From: Collinsella phocaeensis
Lineage (GTDB): Bacteria > Actinomycetota > Coriobacteriia > Coriobacteriales > Coriobacteriaceae
Direction: 5' to 3'
NCBI RefSeq assembly: GCF_900119895.1
Contig: NZ_FQLR01000003.1
Coordinates: 186,001-250,000 of the forward strand
Length of the DNA stretch: 64,000 nucleotides
This document shows positions 45,338 to 55,188 of this stretch, piece by piece. The notes under the pieces are model-generated. The model was not told the origin of the DNA. It was given only the letters and a program-made list of their open reading frames with translations, and did not search any database. A program made the translations under genes and the position numbers. Position 1 is the first letter of the stretch. Each line of letters begins with the position of its first letter.

Positions 45338-46519
45338 ATGGAGACGCACGACGATCGCCTTGCGCGCAACGGGCGCACCGGCGAACCCCACGGCCCGCGC
45401 GGGACCGCGCGCGACGGGAACGCCGCGGGCCGCAGCGCGCTGCGCCTCGCCTCCTCGCGCTCCGCGCACGCGAGCGCCGAGGCAGCGCCCTCCATGCGCC
45501 CGGCGCCCTCGCGCGGCCCAAAGCGCGGCCGGGGCGGCGATACGAACCCGAGTCGTCCGCCCCGGCCTCAGCGCCGCCCCGTCGACGCGCCCCCGTCCGC
45601 CCGCGGCGGTCGCCGCGGTCAGGCCGAGGGCGCGCAGCCGCACCTGAACAACACCTTCCGCTCCGGATCCGCCGCAGCCGGCGGCAACACGCTGCGGTCG
45701 GCCCACTCCGCCGACGGCCTTCGCCGGCCGCAGGCGCGTCGTCGCCCCGGTTCCGTGATCGGGCTTCCCTTGCGCCATTCGCGAGACGGACGTGGATATG
45801 GGCGGCTGCACCATCACGGGCGCACCCGGTCCCGTTTCGCAGCCCGGCCCGAGCGGCGGATCCCCCTGTCCCTACGGATCCTCTTCTCGGTTCTTCTGAT
45901 CGGCGCCGTCTCAAGCCTATTGGGCCACACGAACGCCGGCGTCGACCCCGCGACGGAGGCCGCATGCCTGGAAGTTGCACCGCTCAACCAGGCAGAGCTC
46001 ACGCTCTCGACGCCCATCGCCGCATGGAAGCAGGGAACGTTCCCACACCTCTACCAAACCGACCCCGCGTGGGCCTCCAAGCCCTACGGCGGGGGCACTG
46101 TCGCGCTCAACGCGTGCGGCCCCACCGTGATGTCGATGCTTTACGTCTACTGCACCGGTAATACCGAAATGGATCCCGGCACCATGGCGGCATGGGCAGA
46201 TGAACGGACCTTCGCCCCCACCGGAGCCACGGAATGGGCGTTTTTCACCGATGGCGCCGAGCGCCTTGGCTTGACCTCGAAGATGGTCAACCCGGACCGG
46301 TCTGCCATCGCCGACGCGCTGCGAGCGGGCCATCCCGTCGTCTGCGTCGTGGGACCGGGCGATTTCACCAGCCTGGGTCACTACATCCTGCTCACGGGCA
46401 TCGACGAGGCCGGCACGGTATCGATCTGCGACCCCAACAGCCCCCGAACGAGCGCTCGCCGCTGGGACCTCACCCGCGTCCTTCATCAAACCGAAGTCGC
46501 CTGGGTCTTCGGGGCATAA
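45338..46519 (+). CDS. Membrane-anchored C39-like cysteine peptidase with a long basic tail
   Basis: 393 residues. Residues 1 to about 175 are a low-complexity Arg/Pro/Gly/Ser-rich, strongly basic segment with no fold. One membrane helix follows (IPLSLRILFSVLLIGAVSSLL, about 178-198). The outer domain (about 220-393) is a Peptidase_C39_2-like fold with C260 in NACGPTVMS, H348 in LGHYILL and the third position D365/N367 in CDPNSP. The ATG at 45338 follows GAGGAGGGAGG. With a basic inside and a signal-anchor helix, the protease domain should face outward. Its target, perhaps peptide or peptidoglycan stems, is unknown. Confidence 0.85.
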   Translation: METHDDRLARNGRTGEPHGPRGTARDGNAAGRSALRLASSRSAHASAEAAPSMRPAPSRGPKRGRGGDTNPSRPPRPQRRPVDAPPSARGGRRGQAEGAQPHLNNTFRSGSAAAGGNTLRSAHSADGLRRPQARRRPGSVIGLPLRHSRDGRGYGRLHHHGRTRSRFAARPERRIPLSLRILFSVLLIGAVSSLLGHTNAGVDPATEAACLEVAPLNQAELTLSTPIAAWKQGTFPHLYQTDPAWASKPYGGGTVALNACGPTVMSMLYVYCTGNTEMDPGTMAAWADERTFAPTGATEWAFFTDGAERLGLTSKMVNPDRSAIADALRAGHPVVCVVGPGDFTSLGHYILLTGIDEAGTVSICDPNSPRTSARRWDLTRVLHQTEVAWVFGA

Positions 46520-47001: not shown

Positions 47002-47964
47002 CTAGCCGACGATGCGGGTGCCGGAGAGACCGGCCATGGTCTCGGCGGCCTTGTCGAGGGCGCCGATGATGCAGGTGCGGCCCTTGCGGCTGCGGGCGAA
47101 CTTGATGGCAGCGCGGACCTTCGGCTCCATGGAGCCCTTGCCGAACTGGCCCTCGTCGGCGAGACGCTCGGCCTCGTCGGCGGTGAGCTCCTCGAGCTCC
47201 TCCTGGTTCGGCTTGCCGAAGTTGATCGCGACGTGCTCGACGGCGGTCAGCAGGAACAGGACGTCGGCACCGCAGTCCTCAGCGAGGAGCTCGCCGCCCA
47301 TGTCCTTGTCGATAACGGCGGCCACGCCCTTGTAGCAGCCCTTGTTGTTGTAGTCGCGAACGACGGGGATGCCGCCGCCACCGCAGGCGATGACGATGAA
47401 CTCGTTGTCGAGCAGGTTGAGGATGGAATCGGCCTCGACGATCTTCTTGGGCTCGGGGGAGGCGACGACGCGACGCCAGCCGCGGCCGGAGTCCTCGACG
47501 AAGGTCATCTCGGGATCCTCAGCCATGATGGCCTTGGCCTGCTCCTCGGTGTAGAACGGGCCGATGGGCTTGGTGGGGTTGGCGAACGCGGGGTCGTCCG
47601 GATCGCACTCGATCTGGGTGACGACGGTGGCGGCGTGCCAACGCTTATAGCGCTTGTGCATCTCGCGGCCGATGCCCTGCTGCAGGTGATAGCCGATGTA
47701 GCCCTGGGACATGGCACCGCACTCGGGCAGGTCCATGGAAGGGGTGCCGATGGCGTCGTGCGCGGCGGCGAAGGCGTTCTGGATCATACCGACCTGAGGG
47801 CCGTTGCCGTGGGTGATGATGATCTCGTTGCCCTGCTCGATGAGGCCCAGGAGGGCGTGAGCGGCGTGGTTGACCTTCTCGATCTGCTCGGCGGGAGTAT
47901 CGCCGAGGGCGTTGCCGCCGAGGGCGACGACGATGCGATCGGGCTTGCCGAAGGGCTTAGACAT
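47002..47964 (-). CDS. arcC: Carbamate kinase
   Basis: 320 residues. Amino-acid-kinase fold with VVALGGNALGD at the start, THGNGPQVG near 52, ACGGGGIPV near 195 and VIDKDMGGELLA near 217, where the Lys is catalytic. It transfers phosphate from carbamoyl phosphate to ADP, making ATP plus carbamate in arginine, agmatine or purine breakdown. The ATG at 47964 follows GGAAAGAGG. No arcA, arcB or allantoin genes are in the window, so it works alone here with its own promoter and terminator. Confidence 0.97.
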   Translation of the reverse strand: MSKPFGKPDRIVVALGGNALGDTPAEQIEKVNHAAHALLGLIEQGNEIIITHGNGPQVGMIQNAFAAAHDAIGTPSMDLPECGAMSQGYIGYHLQQGIGREMHKRYKRWHAATVVTQIECDPDDPAFANPTKPIGPFYTEEQAKAIMAEDPEMTFVEDSGRGWRRVVASPEPKKIVEADSILNLLDNEFIVIACGGGGIPVVRDYNNKGCYKGVAAVIDKDMGGELLAEDCGADVLFLLTAVEHVAINFGKPNQEELEELTADEAERLADEGQFGKGSMEPKVRAAIKFARSRKGRTCIIGALDKAAETMAGLSGTRIVG

Positions 47965-47993
47965 GTGCGTACCTCTTTCCTTGAACCGAACTG

Positions 47994-48023
47994 ATTATTC
48001 ATCAGTTAGCGTACTTTATGCAA
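47994..48023 (-). promoter_or_regulatory. Probable arcC promoter
   Basis: TTGCAT (48018-48023), 18 bases, AATAAT (47994-47999); the start would fall near 47987, 23 bases before the coding start. A small dyad CTGAT-TATTC-ATCAG (47991-48005) overlaps the -10 box. Confidence 0.45.
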
Positions 48024-48334
48024 TATACCCCACTCACCACTATGAGGTGTGACCGAAACAAAGCAGTAGGCAAACGGCTTCTTTTTGACGTTAAACGTAA
48101 GCTGACATGGAGATATACCCGCAATAAACTTGACATAGCTTTCGTTAGACCGCGAATCATCCGTGTATACCGCACGCTCATCTGCCGGAGTTATATCCAG
48201 TTCTATACATTTTGCTATCCAAATATGCGCCTGCGCTAGCACGGTGCAGTGCGGTATCGGCCGCACGGTAAGCGGGATGTGCGCGTCGGCGCTTCCATGG
48301 ACCGACCACATCACCAAAGCGATGCCAAACAAAT
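48024..48334. other. AT-rich gene-free stretch
   Basis: About 310 bases, AT-richer than the surroundings. Only short open frames without ribosome sites are present; no repeat or RNA gene is recognised. Confidence 0.4.
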
Positions 48335-48363
48335 CGCCGCGCGAGCGATAAGCCGGCGCGGCG
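48335..48363 (-). terminator. Terminator of the murT operon
   Basis: CGCCGCGC (48335-48342) pairs with GCGCGGCG (48356-48363); on the minus strand followed by ATTTGTTTG. 27 bases past the stop. Confidence 0.6.
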
Positions 48364-48389
48364 ACACCCGTAAATCTCTTTGATCGCGC

Positions 48390-49823
48390 TTAGGCCTGCT
48401 CGATACGCTGGGCCACCCGGTCGCGAAAACGATCGGCCTGCTCGCCGTTGAAGATGTCGTATGCGCAGAACACGCCATCGATCCCCTCGAGATCGATCAG
48501 GTCGGCTGCATCCGTCTCGGTCTCAGCGAGCTTGATCCTCGCGGGATCCACCCCCGCAAGCAGCAGGCGAAGCAGCAGGTCGTCGGAATTCGCGCCCTGA
48601 ACGACCACCTGCTTCACGTCCTCTCCCGCCAGATGCTCGAAATCCGCTTGGTAGTACCAGCCGATGTACTCGGTCTTCTTGGGGTTCGTGGCCAGATAGT
48701 AATCTGCGAGCATGAGCACCACGGCCTTACGGCCAGGCTCCCCGCAGATCGTCGCGAGAGCCGTCGAGGTGGCGGTGCTGTTCTCCCCCTTCGAGGCGGA
48801 ATTGACCAGCCTCATCTCGCGAGCGGACGTCTCGCTGAAACGAGCGGCGGTGACGTTGACCTTGCCCGAAGCGAGAATGCGCTGCAGTTCCTCGGCTGCG
48901 ATACCCAGCTCGCGCGCCGTCACCAAAGCTGCAACGAGGTTGTACAGGTTCGTGATGGAGTACGCGCCGATGCGGTACGTGTACTCGGGAGCCTTTCCGT
49001 CCCGCGCATGGCAGACCTCGCGTACAGTGAACTCGAGCGCCCGTTTATCCACATGCGTCACGAGGTAATCCGGCTCGGGATTGGTGAACCCGCAGCTCGT
49101 GCAGTGCGCATGGCCGAGATGGCGCAGATGGCACCAGTCGTACTCAAGGTGGCCGCCGCACTCGGGGCAGGCGGTGAGGTCGCAGACGATGCCCTCGGGA
49201 CCCTCGAGGTCGTCGGGTAGCCGATCGATGGAGAAATAGGTTCGCCGATGAGCTTGCGGAGCCAGGCGGCACGAGATGAGGTCATCGGCGTTGAGCACAA
49301 GATGCGTGGATGCGGGGACACTTGCATCGATGACGCTGAAGATGTAATCCGGATTAGCGTTGCGCGTGAAGTTATCGCGGTAAAGGTTGACCGCGAGTAG
49401 GATGTCCGGAGTCATGTGCGGCAGAACGCGGCGGCAGGACAGCTCGTCCAGCTCCATGCAGGCAACGGAATTCTTGGGTGCGCCGGAGACGGTCGAGCCT
49501 TTGATGAGGGAGCTCTCGATACCGGTGATAATGTTTCCGCCTGCTCGGTTGGTAACCAAATCGAGCCCGCTTTCGATCAAGATGTCGTCAAGCAGGTTGG
49601 AGGTGGTGGTCTTTCCATTCGTCCCCGTCACGAAGACGACGCGCTCGGGCTTGGGTATGCGCGCGAGAAAATCCGGGCAGATCGCTTCGGCAACCGTACC
49701 GGGAACCTGGCCGCCGCGACGGCGCGCCAGCTTCAAGACGGCAGCCGCAGCCTTTCCCGCTGCAAGCGCGAGATAGAAGCGCGGTGTACGGGGCGCGCCG
49801 GTTGCTTGTTGCTGAGTGGTCAC
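48390..49823 (-). CDS. murT: MurT-type Mur ligase domain protein (lipid II isoglutaminyl synthase subunit)
   Basis: 477 residues. ATP-binding P-loop VTGTNGKTTTSNLL near residue 65, Mur-ligase centre, an inserted Cys4 zinc ribbon (CPECGG near 218 to CTSCG near 244) diagnostic of MurT, and the C-terminal DUF1727 domain. MurT activates the alpha-carboxyl of D-Glu in lipid II; GatD supplies ammonia, giving D-isoglutamine. The GTG at 49823, with AAGGAG nine bases before, is preferred to longer frames. It follows the GatD-like gene by 56 bases. MurT looks intact while its partner does not. Confidence 0.93.
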   Translation of the reverse strand: MTTQQQATGAPRTPRFYLALAAGKAAAAVLKLARRRGGQVPGTVAEAICPDFLARIPKPERVVFVTGTNGKTTTSNLLDDILIESGLDLVTNRAGGNIITGIESSLIKGSTVSGAPKNSVACMELDELSCRRVLPHMTPDILLAVNLYRDNFTRNANPDYIFSVIDASVPASTHLVLNADDLISCRLAPQAHRRTYFSIDRLPDDLEGPEGIVCDLTACPECGGHLEYDWCHLRHLGHAHCTSCGFTNPEPDYLVTHVDKRALEFTVREVCHARDGKAPEYTYRIGAYSITNLYNLVAALVTARELGIAAEELQRILASGKVNVTAARFSETSAREMRLVNSASKGENSTATSTALATICGEPGRKAVVLMLADYYLATNPKKTEYIGWYYQADFEHLAGEDVKQVVVQGANSDDLLLRLLLAGVDPARIKLAETETDAADLIDLEGIDGVFCAYDIFNGEQADRFRDRVAQRIEQA

Positions 49824-49879
49824 GTTCGTTTGCTCCTTCAGTGCACCTTGGGTGCGGATAGGGAATCGGGGACGCAGGG

Positions 49880-50617
49880 CTAGATGTCCATGCCCGGTGT
49901 CGCAAAATCCTTGACGCGCTGACGGTACGCGCGCAACGCGACGTCCGCATACGCGAGCTCGGCGTCCGCCTCCCCCATCGTGTCGAGCAGCCAACGCGTG
50001 AAAGGAGGATTGACAGGAAGCAGCGGCCCCAAAAACCAGGTGGCGATGAGGTTGCCGCGGCGTAGGCCCTCGAACGAGCTGCGCTCATTCAGACCGAACC
50101 CTTGCCTGAGCTTACAGAAGCACACATCGGAATTGTCGCCCTCCATCTGCGTGAACTGCATCTTGAAACCGACGATATCGATCGGGTTGTCCCCAGGCGA
50201 AGGTGTGAACGTGCCAAGCCCCACCCCCGTGAAACGCTTGGGTGTGAGCTGGCGCGTGACGATGTCGAAGAGCCCGAGCGCCTCGACCTCGAGGCCATCG
50301 GGCCTTACGATCGCGCGACCCAGAAGCTCCGCAGCGTTGCCGGTGAACAGCATCGGGGTCCCGGCGTCCGCAAGGGACGCGATGCGCCCCGCCAGCGGCC
50401 GCAGCTCGTCGAGGACGCGCTCCTGCTGACGTTCGGTCATGCCGCACAGCAGCACAAGATCGATATCGTCGCGGGTCGAGAACGCGGGGGCGGAACCGAA
50501 CGGCGTCTCAATGAACTCCGCCTCGGGCAGGCACGCGCGCAGATACATCGCGTTTCCGTTGTCGCCCGCCTGGTTCCCGAATTCGGGATACAGAACCTCG
50601 ATCGTTGTCCGTGCCAT
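49880..50617 (-). CDS. GatD-like class-I glutamine-amidotransferase homologue lacking catalytic Cys and His
   Basis: 245 residues, the length of GatD, and placed before murT as GatD often is. It starts ATG 50617 after AAAGGGGAGGG. The scaffold is recognisable: YPEFGNQAGDNGNAMYLRA, then MLFTGNAAELLG and TWFLGPLLPVNPPFTRWLL. In working GatD the nucleophile is Cys94 (GICGGYQ type) and the base is the His in the TYxHGPxLPxNP motif. Here these positions read N94 and L196, so glutamine hydrolysis should be impossible. It may be a structural partner or use free ammonia (inference). Confidence 0.8.
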   Translation of the reverse strand: MARTTIEVLYPEFGNQAGDNGNAMYLRACLPEAEFIETPFGSAPAFSTRDDIDLVLLCGMTERQQERVLDELRPLAGRIASLADAGTPMLFTGNAAELLGRAIVRPDGLEVEALGLFDIVTRQLTPKRFTGVGLGTFTPSPGDNPIDIVGFKMQFTQMEGDNSDVCFCKLRQGFGLNERSSFEGLRRGNLIATWFLGPLLPVNPPFTRWLLDTMGEADAELAYADVALRAYRQRVKDFATPGMDI

Positions 50618-50716
50618 CCGGCCCTCCCCTTTGGTTCGCTCAATCGATGCAATTATCCAACATGGACGCGCGATCGCCCCTCAACCATATAAAGAGCAGA
50701 GCGAAAGCCCGCGCCC

Positions 50717-51006
50717 GCAGCGCACCATCGCTTTTCCGCGCGCTGGCGGGGGAAACGAAGGGAGGCCCCGAAGGGATTCCCAAGGCAAACATTCCGCAGC
50801 GCACCATCACCTTCCCGCGCGCAGGCGGGAGAGATACGAAGAGGCCCCGGGGCTTTCCCTGAGAACATTCCGCAGCGCACCATCATCTTGTAGCGCGCAG
50901 GCGGGGGAAACGAAGGGAGGCCCCGAAGGGATTCCCAAGGCAAACATTCCGCAGCGCGAAGCGCGAGGACGTTTGCCGGGGAACCCTTCGGGGCCTCCCG
51001 GTGGGA
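50717..51006. repeat. Tandem repeat array with terminator-like hairpin downstream of PFOR
   Basis: Three units of 79, 76 and 79 bp begin GCAGCGCACCATC at 50717, 50796 and 50872; a fourth is cut short at 50951. Units 1 and 3 share an identical stretch containing GGAGGCCCCGAAGGG. That block at 50916-50930 is inverted at 50984-50998, with CAAAC/GTTTG (50941-50945/50971-50975) inside, forming a large hairpin 29 bases past the PFOR stop. Confidence 0.75.
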
Positions 51007-51026
51007 CGGATTATCCCAGCCGAAGC

Positions 51027-54569
<3,543 letters not shown>

Positions 54570-54846
54570 ATACCCCTCTCCTCTCGTATGGGTGTACATG
54601 TGGTTCCGGATGCGGATGCTCCCGGAGGGGCCGCGGGCAAGACGCCCCGACTCCATCATGCCCGGCACGGCTGGGCGATCAGACGCGCCGATGATTAGAA
54701 AATCTGCATGCGGGTTCATTGTACTCCCAACGGAGCGGGGCCAAGCTGAAACAGGAAGAGCTTTCGCGTGCTTTCGATGCGCTTTCCGTGTTCCGCGCGG
54801 CCACCGGGCGCACGAGCAGCCCGAAGTCGAAGACAGGGGGCGAAGC

Positions 54847-55188
54847 CTACTCCCAACGAGACCAGGCATCGGGGTCGTAGCCCACGGTCGCCGCGCGCCC
54901 GTTGCGCACGATGGGCTCGCGCAGGACCTGCTGGTTCTCGAGCAGCTTGTCGAACTTCTGGCTCTCTGCGAGATACGTGATGAGCGCCACGGCGTCCTGG
55001 TCCTTGGCCGCGGGGTCGATGAGCCCCTCGATGCCGCCGACCGCGCGCATCACGCTGGTGAGCTCGCCTTTGCTCATGCCCTTTTCCTTGAGGTCGATAA
55101 ATTGGAAGCGGATGCGACGCTCCTTGAACCAGCGCTGCGCCTTCTTGGTGTCGAAGCTCTTCTTGGTTCCGAATATCTGGATGTTCAC
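54847..55188 (-). CDS. ArsC/Spx-family thioredoxin-fold protein without the active-site cysteine
   Basis: 113 residues. Thioredoxin-like ArsC family: NIQIFGTKKSFDTKKAQRWFKERRI at the start, LKEKGMSKGEL, and the late cis-Pro region LREPIVRNG. ArsC has Cys, and Spx a CxxC, where this protein has GTKKSFDTK, so it cannot be an arsenate reductase; YffB-like or Spx-like roles are open. The GTG at 55188 follows AAAGGA. It is separated from PFOR downstream by about 280 bases with no gene; the PFOR promoter must lie there. Confidence 0.85.
   Translation of the reverse strand: MNIQIFGTKKSFDTKKAQRWFKERRIRFQFIDLKEKGMSKGELTSVMRAVGGIEGLIDPAAKDQDAVALITYLAESQKFDKLLENQQVLREPIVRNGRAATVGYDPDAWSRWE

Follow-up and report, generated by a model that had tools for sequence, protein, structure and literature searches.

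The window analysed here, a stretch of 64,000 nucleotides from Collinsella phocaeensis (contig NZ_FQLR01000003.1), encodes a GatD-like protein and a MurT-like ligase, the latter starting with a GTG codon behind an AAGGAG motif, 56 nt after the gatD-like gene. The pair sits between the genes for pyruvate:ferredoxin oxidoreductase (PFOR) and carbamate kinase (arcC).

Table 1. Features of the gatD-like/murT-like locus, in positions of the window
Feature	Position	Strand	Basis
Carbamate kinase arcC, context	47002..47964	minus	AA_kinase
MurT-like ATP-dependent ligase, 477 aa	48390..49823	minus	MurT_C match, PDB match
MurT-like E386-Y387, counted from base 49826 (348-349 in S. aureus), Tyr for the triad Asp D349	48666..48671	minus	
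Gate loop facing GatD, N-A-N versus canonical Y/F-G-E	49353..49361	minus	alignment
Intact P-loop of the MurT-like ligase, GTNGKTT	49605..49625	minus	sequence
GatD-like subunit (245 aa) lacking the glutaminase residues	49880..50617	minus	ORF, Pfam GATase_3, AF2, VIA-align
Codon L196, catalytic His position (S. aureus H189)	50030..50032	minus	alignments
Codon R128, glutamine-capturing Arg, retained	50234..50236	minus	alignment
Codon G93, nucleophile Cys position (S. aureus C94)	50339..50341	minus	alignments, model
PFOR ORF, other side of the junction	51027..54869	minus	

The GatD-like protein matched the Pfam GATase_3 profile with 35.1 bits (cut-off 27), and its top PDB matches were the GatD chains of S. 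aureus, S. pyogenes and S. pneumoniae. Its scores with the NCBIfam GatD equivalog models were far under the cut-offs (47.7 against 450 and 38.4 against 400 bits). An AlphaFold2 model built on a 30-sequence alignment reached a pLDDT of 94.3 and a pTM of 0.92. Comparison with GatD from S. aureus (6h5e_A) gave a Foldseek TM score of 0.81, which places the protein in the class I GATase/GatD fold, and a VIA-align Z of 26.8 with an rmsd of 2.7 over 232 aligned residues. The original prediction had described an intact GatD-like scaffold with FTGNAAELLG and GPLLPxNP motifs; the scaffold is borne out by the profile and PDB matches, and both motifs (the second here as GPLLPVNP) were found where it had put them.

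Analysis of the glutaminase site revealed that the nucleophile Cys aligns with Gly93, both with MAFFT and in a profile-profile alignment. In the predicted structure, residues 89-92 form a strand and residues 93-99 a helix, which makes residue 93 the nucleophile-elbow residue. This residue-level match is based on the sequence and profile alignments together with the elbow in the model, Foldseek and VIA-align giving ranges only. Asn94, initially taken for the replacement of the Cys, is thus the next residue and corresponds to S. aureus G95. Together with G60, this residue is described as an oxyanion-hole position of S. aureus GatD (PMC5871853), and in the alignment this Gly pair is lost in the window protein, which has Met60 and Asn94. 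For the catalytic His, the two alignments agree on Leu196, as had been proposed. The whole protein contains four Cys (29, 58, 166 and 168) and no His, which rules out a Cys and a His placed elsewhere in catalytic geometry. Arg128, in contrast to these losses, is retained; its S. aureus counterpart is described as the residue capturing glutamine (PMC5871853). Judged from these residues, the window protein cannot work as an ordinary glutaminase, though its Pfam label reads glutamine amidotransferase domain.

A pattern scan of one genome per species (84,980 species) located 86 places encoding a relative, of which the best 80 were kept; the patterns were built from the window's close relatives, so the motifs shared by the resulting 81 sequences (window plus the best 80 of 86) partly reflect selection. 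The 80 relatives come from Collinsella (C. tanakaei YIT 12063 included), Lancefieldella rimae (ATCC 49626), Atopobium, other Coriobacteriia, many Clostridia and two Propionibacteriaceae MAGs. Across the 81, the nucleophile position is occupied by Gly (72), His (8) or Ala (1) and never by Cys, and the catalytic His position by Leu (39), Ile (36), Val (4), Cys (1) or Ser (1); the Cys and the His are thus each missing from their catalytic position in every sequence, eight of which have His at the Cys position. Arg128 is kept in 81/81, and at least one His is present somewhere in 78/81, the window protein having none. In the same best 80 of 86 loci, the nearest gene to the Cys-less gatD-like gene is always murT-like (80/80), and the two are joined in a single ORF in 15/80; L041 is a natural fusion of this kind. 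The Cys/His pair is therefore missing from all direct members of the 81, and the copies with an intact pair in other Collinsella belong to a separate subfamily at another locus. On these alignments, the loss is not that of one decayed gene; it is common to a multi-class family. The core of the original prediction stands and reaches further than first thought, except that the variant is not lineage-specific if one lineage of Coriobacteriia was meant, since many Clostridia also carry it. Among the titles and abstract openings listed for the open-licence PMC literature, none concerned a Cys-less GatD.

The MurT-like protein of the window matched S. aureus MurT in the PDB (E 3.5e-46) and Pfam MurT_C (49.1 bits, cut-off 25), and stayed under the cut-off of two NCBIfam MurT equivalog models (186.4 and 139.8 bits, against 800 for each). 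At an E value of 0.001, Pfam returned only MurT_C and Mur_ligase_M (23.5 bits, cut-off 24), with no N-terminal UDP-binding domain of MurC-F. Of the 81 sequences (window plus the best 80 of 86), 80-81 retain the P-loop and, in S. aureus numbering, N85, E108, D110, R138, N267, R298, K315 and W352. All 41 group A MurT representatives have D110 and E111, and all 41 show the four Cys columns of the Cys4 zinc ribbon, which the window protein also has.

D349, which is described as completing the glutaminase triad in S. aureus (PMC6113224), is lost in 80/81 (window plus the best 80 of 86), with Asn in 41, Tyr in 27, Phe in 10, Ser in 1 and Ile in 1, a single sequence keeping Asp; the residue just before it, E348, is Glu in 81/81. 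The partner had been called an intact MurT, which applies to its ATP site, found whole, but not to the triad Asp, here a Tyr. The gate loop R-[YF]-G-E has become R-[NS]-A-[HNDT] in window-type MurTs, with Asn in 74 and Ser in 7 at the first variable position, Ala in all 81, and His in 49, Asn in 25, Asp in 4 and Thr in 3 at the last (n = 81, window plus the best 80 of 86). In the model of a fused relative, the gate loop (136-142) and residues 359-368 have pLDDT values below 50, and the gate geometry is not predicted.

Further Cys-less groups were found by profile, in additional stretches from Clostridia and Coriobacteriia. Their D349 site is Glu in 9/12 and Asp in 3/12 of the group B MurT rows, and Asp also in L139, L140, L145, L146 and L181; the Cys-less rows that keep this Asp are L139, L140, L145, L146, L154, L157, L164 and L181. 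The R128 site carries Lys in L139 and L140, and Val in L173, L181, L189 and L190. E348 marks the window's own group; the other Cys-less groups have not kept it. Another Cys-less group, with GT at the elbow, Val for R128 and Asn for MurT D349, comprises L173, L189 and L190, one of them from the window's genus and the other two from genomes in the class of Neglectibacter. In L144 and L152, also from the class of Neglectibacter, the elbow reads INN instead of TGN and the HGP motif is gone.

In an 87-row tree of MurT and GatD, one branch with an SH-aLRT support of 100 parted 61 Cys-less rows from 26 Cys-bearing rows; this was a quick build with the motif columns removed and no bootstrap, in which NL181 forms a long branch and the letter composition of 42 rows is unusual. 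The 81 family members were represented by 28 rows and the 8 canonical Collinsella sequences by 3, and N_L172 (unreliable MurT) and L185 (no MurT in its stretch) were dropped. With the window, nine coriobacterial rows are nested among mostly Clostridia rows, as a transfer would give, while the coriobacterial NL169 takes a different place in that clade. The tree is unrooted, and under midpoint rooting the Cys-bearing rows fall within the Cys-less ones. Related GATases carry the Cys, and HisH and others among the structure matches are glutaminases by name, so that loss of the Cys seems likelier than its gain.

To what extent the Cys-less and canonical pairs exclude each other was read from genome screens. 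Among 64 genomes of the window's taxonomic family, a canonical match of at least 144 bits is present in 34 (9/34 sequence-checked), a window-type Cys-less pair in 16, and both in a single one, G046 (Fisher p 1.6e-5, a value that ignores shared ancestry). Another search found the window-type family in 17/65 genomes, and G032 has only a different Cys-less pair. By score, 396 Coriobacteriia include 33 with the window-type family, 239 with another GatD-type match, sequence-checked in part only, and at least two with both (G219 and G046), co-occurrence being a lower bound here as the screen missed the canonical copy of G046. No second GatD-type match was found in 49 of 50 family-carrying genomes, a count that perhaps under-counts genomes with both. 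The second copy in the remaining genome, G400, is also Cys-less; this copy (L181) has kept MurT D349 (KDISWLYD), carries Val for R128 and sits on a long branch. Two adjacent Cys-less GatD copies occur in G046 (C3:152072-155322) and in G059 (C115:128-5292). In the class of Neglectibacter, GatD-type matches, whichever the kind, were present in 208 of the 391 genomes sampled.

In the window's own genome there is no second gatD: PF07685 finds the window gene and a HisH-like ORF only, the latter named by sequence reading and located in a histidine-biosynthesis stretch, and a canonical GatD query matches the window gene alone. The canonical MurT/GatD pair is absent from its usual locus, a 14-kb stretch (L220) that keeps three of the canonical-pair flank genes together, the gene of the other flank being present elsewhere, twice. 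These results support the proposal that a GatD-like partner without glutaminase function has been retained beside a MurT still competent for ATP. The near-exclusion of the two kinds of pair also suggests that they share an acceptor.

Compared with S. aureus MurT/GatD (6gs2, 6h5e, 7q8e), the pair has the same two subunits side by side, the GatD fold, the Cys4 zinc ribbon, the P-loop and R128, and differs by C94 to Gly, H189 to Leu, G60 to Met, G95 to Asn, MurT D349 to Tyr and the changed gate loop. The MurT half of the fused relative aligns with S. aureus 7q8e_A over 382 residues with a Z of 22.2 and an rmsd of 8.8, and its domain arrangement differs. With the S. pneumoniae and S. pyogenes complexes (6fqb, 9sq9), the pair shares the folds and, matched via S. 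aureus numbering, the counterparts of N85, D112/E113, R304 and D136/R140, whereas those of C107, H206, D355 and the plug Y30 (A17 here) are absent. Among four residues of the S. pneumoniae gate loop that were tested, D136 and R140 are reported to matter for activity, and D139 and E143 hardly (PMC6085368); in window-type MurTs, the counterparts of the first two are kept and those of the last two mostly lost, again matched via S. aureus numbering. According to the same source, the D139A change altered the contact with GatD.

The closest functional parallel is a laboratory mutant. S. aureus MurT together with GatD C94G is reported to have lost the use of glutamine and kept NH3-dependent amidation of lipid II (Muench et al. 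2012, PMC3266927), an activity seen at pH 8.5 and not at pH 7.5, and MurT alone was inactive. The mutant carries the same Cys to Gly change as the natural family, and it is a single change, whereas in the natural family the His is missing too, as is MurT D349 in 80/81 (window plus the best 80 of 86), and conserved residues of a new kind have appeared. Archaea are also described with a MurT relative that has no glutaminase beside it (PMC11915815); those with only a MurT-like protein have, according to that source, no GatD homologue, whereas the GatD-like subunit is kept here.

We consider that the best explanation, with a probability of roughly 0.4, is a glutaminase-dead MurT/GatD complex that is fed by ammonia and forms D-isoglutamine without glutamine. 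The complex would no longer hydrolyse glutamine; its MurT subunit would bind ATP, activate a carboxylate as an acyl phosphate and join an amine to it, this carboxylate being most likely the α-carboxyl of D-Glu in lipid I/II. The GatD-like subunit would be kept as an obligatory scaffold and gate, and ammonia or ammonium, which is plentiful in the gut, would enter directly at the former glutaminase site. The main ground for such a ligase, for the scaffold role of GatD and for ammonia as the donor is the analogy between the NH3-dependent activity of C94G and the natural Gly that occupies the same position in 72/81 members (window plus the best 80 of 86). In addition, the fold and the pairing persist although Cys and His are both gone and, in 80/81 of that set, the MurT Asp as well; the ligase residues and the gate-loop residues relevant for activity are conserved while the other gate-loop residues are mostly lost. 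The acceptor and the donor are the parts of this scheme that we infer. A glutamine-independent ligase acting on D-Glu, whatever the amine, is likely, and the pairs would then make up a MurT/GatD subfamily that is widespread, independent of glutamine and probably directed at the α-carboxyl of D-Glu. Ammonia is the leading nitrogen source, at somewhat less than even odds, with another amine as a serious rival.

Several observations weigh against ammonia. By analogy with S. aureus C94G, which used ammonia at pH 8.5 only, it would have to work better here. The conserved changes of the gate and site (MurT E348 and N139; GatD Q97 to Glu and G95 to Asn) exceed the needs of a simple glutaminase loss, and the retention of R128 in 81/81 (window plus the best 80 of 86) would be unexplained if no amino acid is bound. 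Given the effect of D139A on the GatD contact in S. pneumoniae, the loss of this residue may not be neutral. Outside the window's own 81, the triad loss is not uniform, some Cys-less rows still having Asp at D349.

The changed gate and pocket and the kept R128 lend some weight to a complex that joins another amine, such as an amino acid, a diamine or an amino-acid amide, to the D-Glu α-carboxyl, with the glutamine pocket and gate rebuilt for this donor; we regard this reading as a serious, though less likely, rival. The altered residues (E348; GatD N94 and E97) could bind ammonium or a larger amine. A larger one would suit the new conserved acidic residues (MurT E348 in 81/81, window plus the best 80 of 86; GatD Q97 to Glu and D62 to Glu), the retained R128 and the habit of MurT's family, which normally joins amino acids. 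D-Glu substituents of this kind exist elsewhere, with Gly described in Intrasporangium (PMC3035309) and cadaverine or putrescine in Negativicutes (PMC10628300). FemAB genes are also commoner with the Cys-less pair (7/16 window-type genomes against 2/33 canonical-only genomes, which may reflect shared ancestry), and no FemAB match was found in the window's genome.

Against such an amine, no donor is indicated, and E348 is not kept by the other Cys-less groups. A diamine donor was rejected, as OKR decarboxylases of the PF01276 class occur in 1/64 genomes of the taxonomic family, and not in the window's. The family was likewise rejected as the ligase of the Gly-substituted or type B walls known in Actinomycetes: among 296 genomes, only the query genome appeared at this score level, the matches of about 100 bits being judged by score alone. 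The wall types given for Atopobium (A4α, PMC11382707) and Olsenella uli (A4β, PMC3035265) are, in these sources, silent on amidation or other substitution of D-Glu. For the gut Clostridia and Coriobacteriia of this large family, which would have given up glutamine-derived ammonia for another amine, an unrecorded D-Glu α-carboxyl substituent, with the dead glutaminase re-used as a donor-binding site, is about as likely as the amine reading itself.

That the complex acts on a carboxylate other than that of peptidoglycan D-Glu is improbable. The fused relative is only 23-30% identical to the solved MurT chains, and the NCBIfam MurT score of 186 against a cut-off of 800 points the same way, but the near-exclusion with canonical MurT/GatD would be unexpected for an unrelated substrate, and the acceptor Asn N85, D110/E111 and the NADD stretch, proposed as contacts of the stem peptide (PMC6085368, PMC6113224), are kept. 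Still less probable is a decayed or purely regulatory GatD remnant in a complex devoid of ligase activity, which would account for the missing glutaminase residues and not for the ligase residues conserved across divergent members, the 15 fusions among 80 loci (best 80 of 86) or the AF2 model with its GatD fold and pLDDT of 94. A hidden glutaminase with another nucleophile or base, for which C29 (73/81 members, window plus the best 80 of 86) might be put forward, can be practically dismissed, as the window protein has no His, although 78/81 members have at least one, its oxyanion Gly residues have become M60 and N94, and C29 forms the end of helix 20-29, away from the elbow.

In S. pneumoniae, S. 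aureus and M. tuberculosis, the amidation of D-Glu by MurT/GatD is described as essential (PMC6085368), and D-Glu amidation is reported to alter what NOD receptors see (PMC11132681). Bacteria with a glutaminase-dead pair probably modify this wall position in another way. If so, many gut anaerobes would have a glutamine-free amidation of D-Glu, or another modification at that carboxyl. To our knowledge, no ligase has been identified that attaches the other substituents of D-Glu (Gly, diamines, type B bridges), and the Cys-less family offers testable candidates.

Regarding the genomic place of the pair, PFOR and arcC adjoin without it in four canonical genomes (L205, L206, L207 and L210; gaps of 0.7-1.1 kb). 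In L204 and L214 the gap is 3.3-3.5 kb with no MurT match, L209, L211, L212, L213 and L215 have no PFOR, and L216 has a window-type pair. A carbamate kinase gene lies near the pair in 11/28 loci (L033-L060, some with incomplete flanks) against 0/12 canonical loci. As a functional neighbour supplying NH3 and ATP, arcC was given no weight, since the adjacency of PFOR and arcC without the pair makes insertion at this junction a better explanation of the neighbourhood. Two different Cys-less pairs occupy the PFOR-arcC junction in different Collinsella genomes (window 47964-51027; L208 7612-15933), the one in L208 (G032) being in the opposite orientation with a MurT 26% identical; the junction is perhaps a repeated landing site. 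A C39-like peptidase gene (45338-46519) also lies near arcC, and a relative of it was found within about 5 kb of arcC in 9/13 stretches. Among the 52 clostridial loci L061-L112, 17-18 have RlmN-like, PP2C-phosphatase-like and Ser/Thr-kinase-like genes, named by sequence reading, downstream of the pair.
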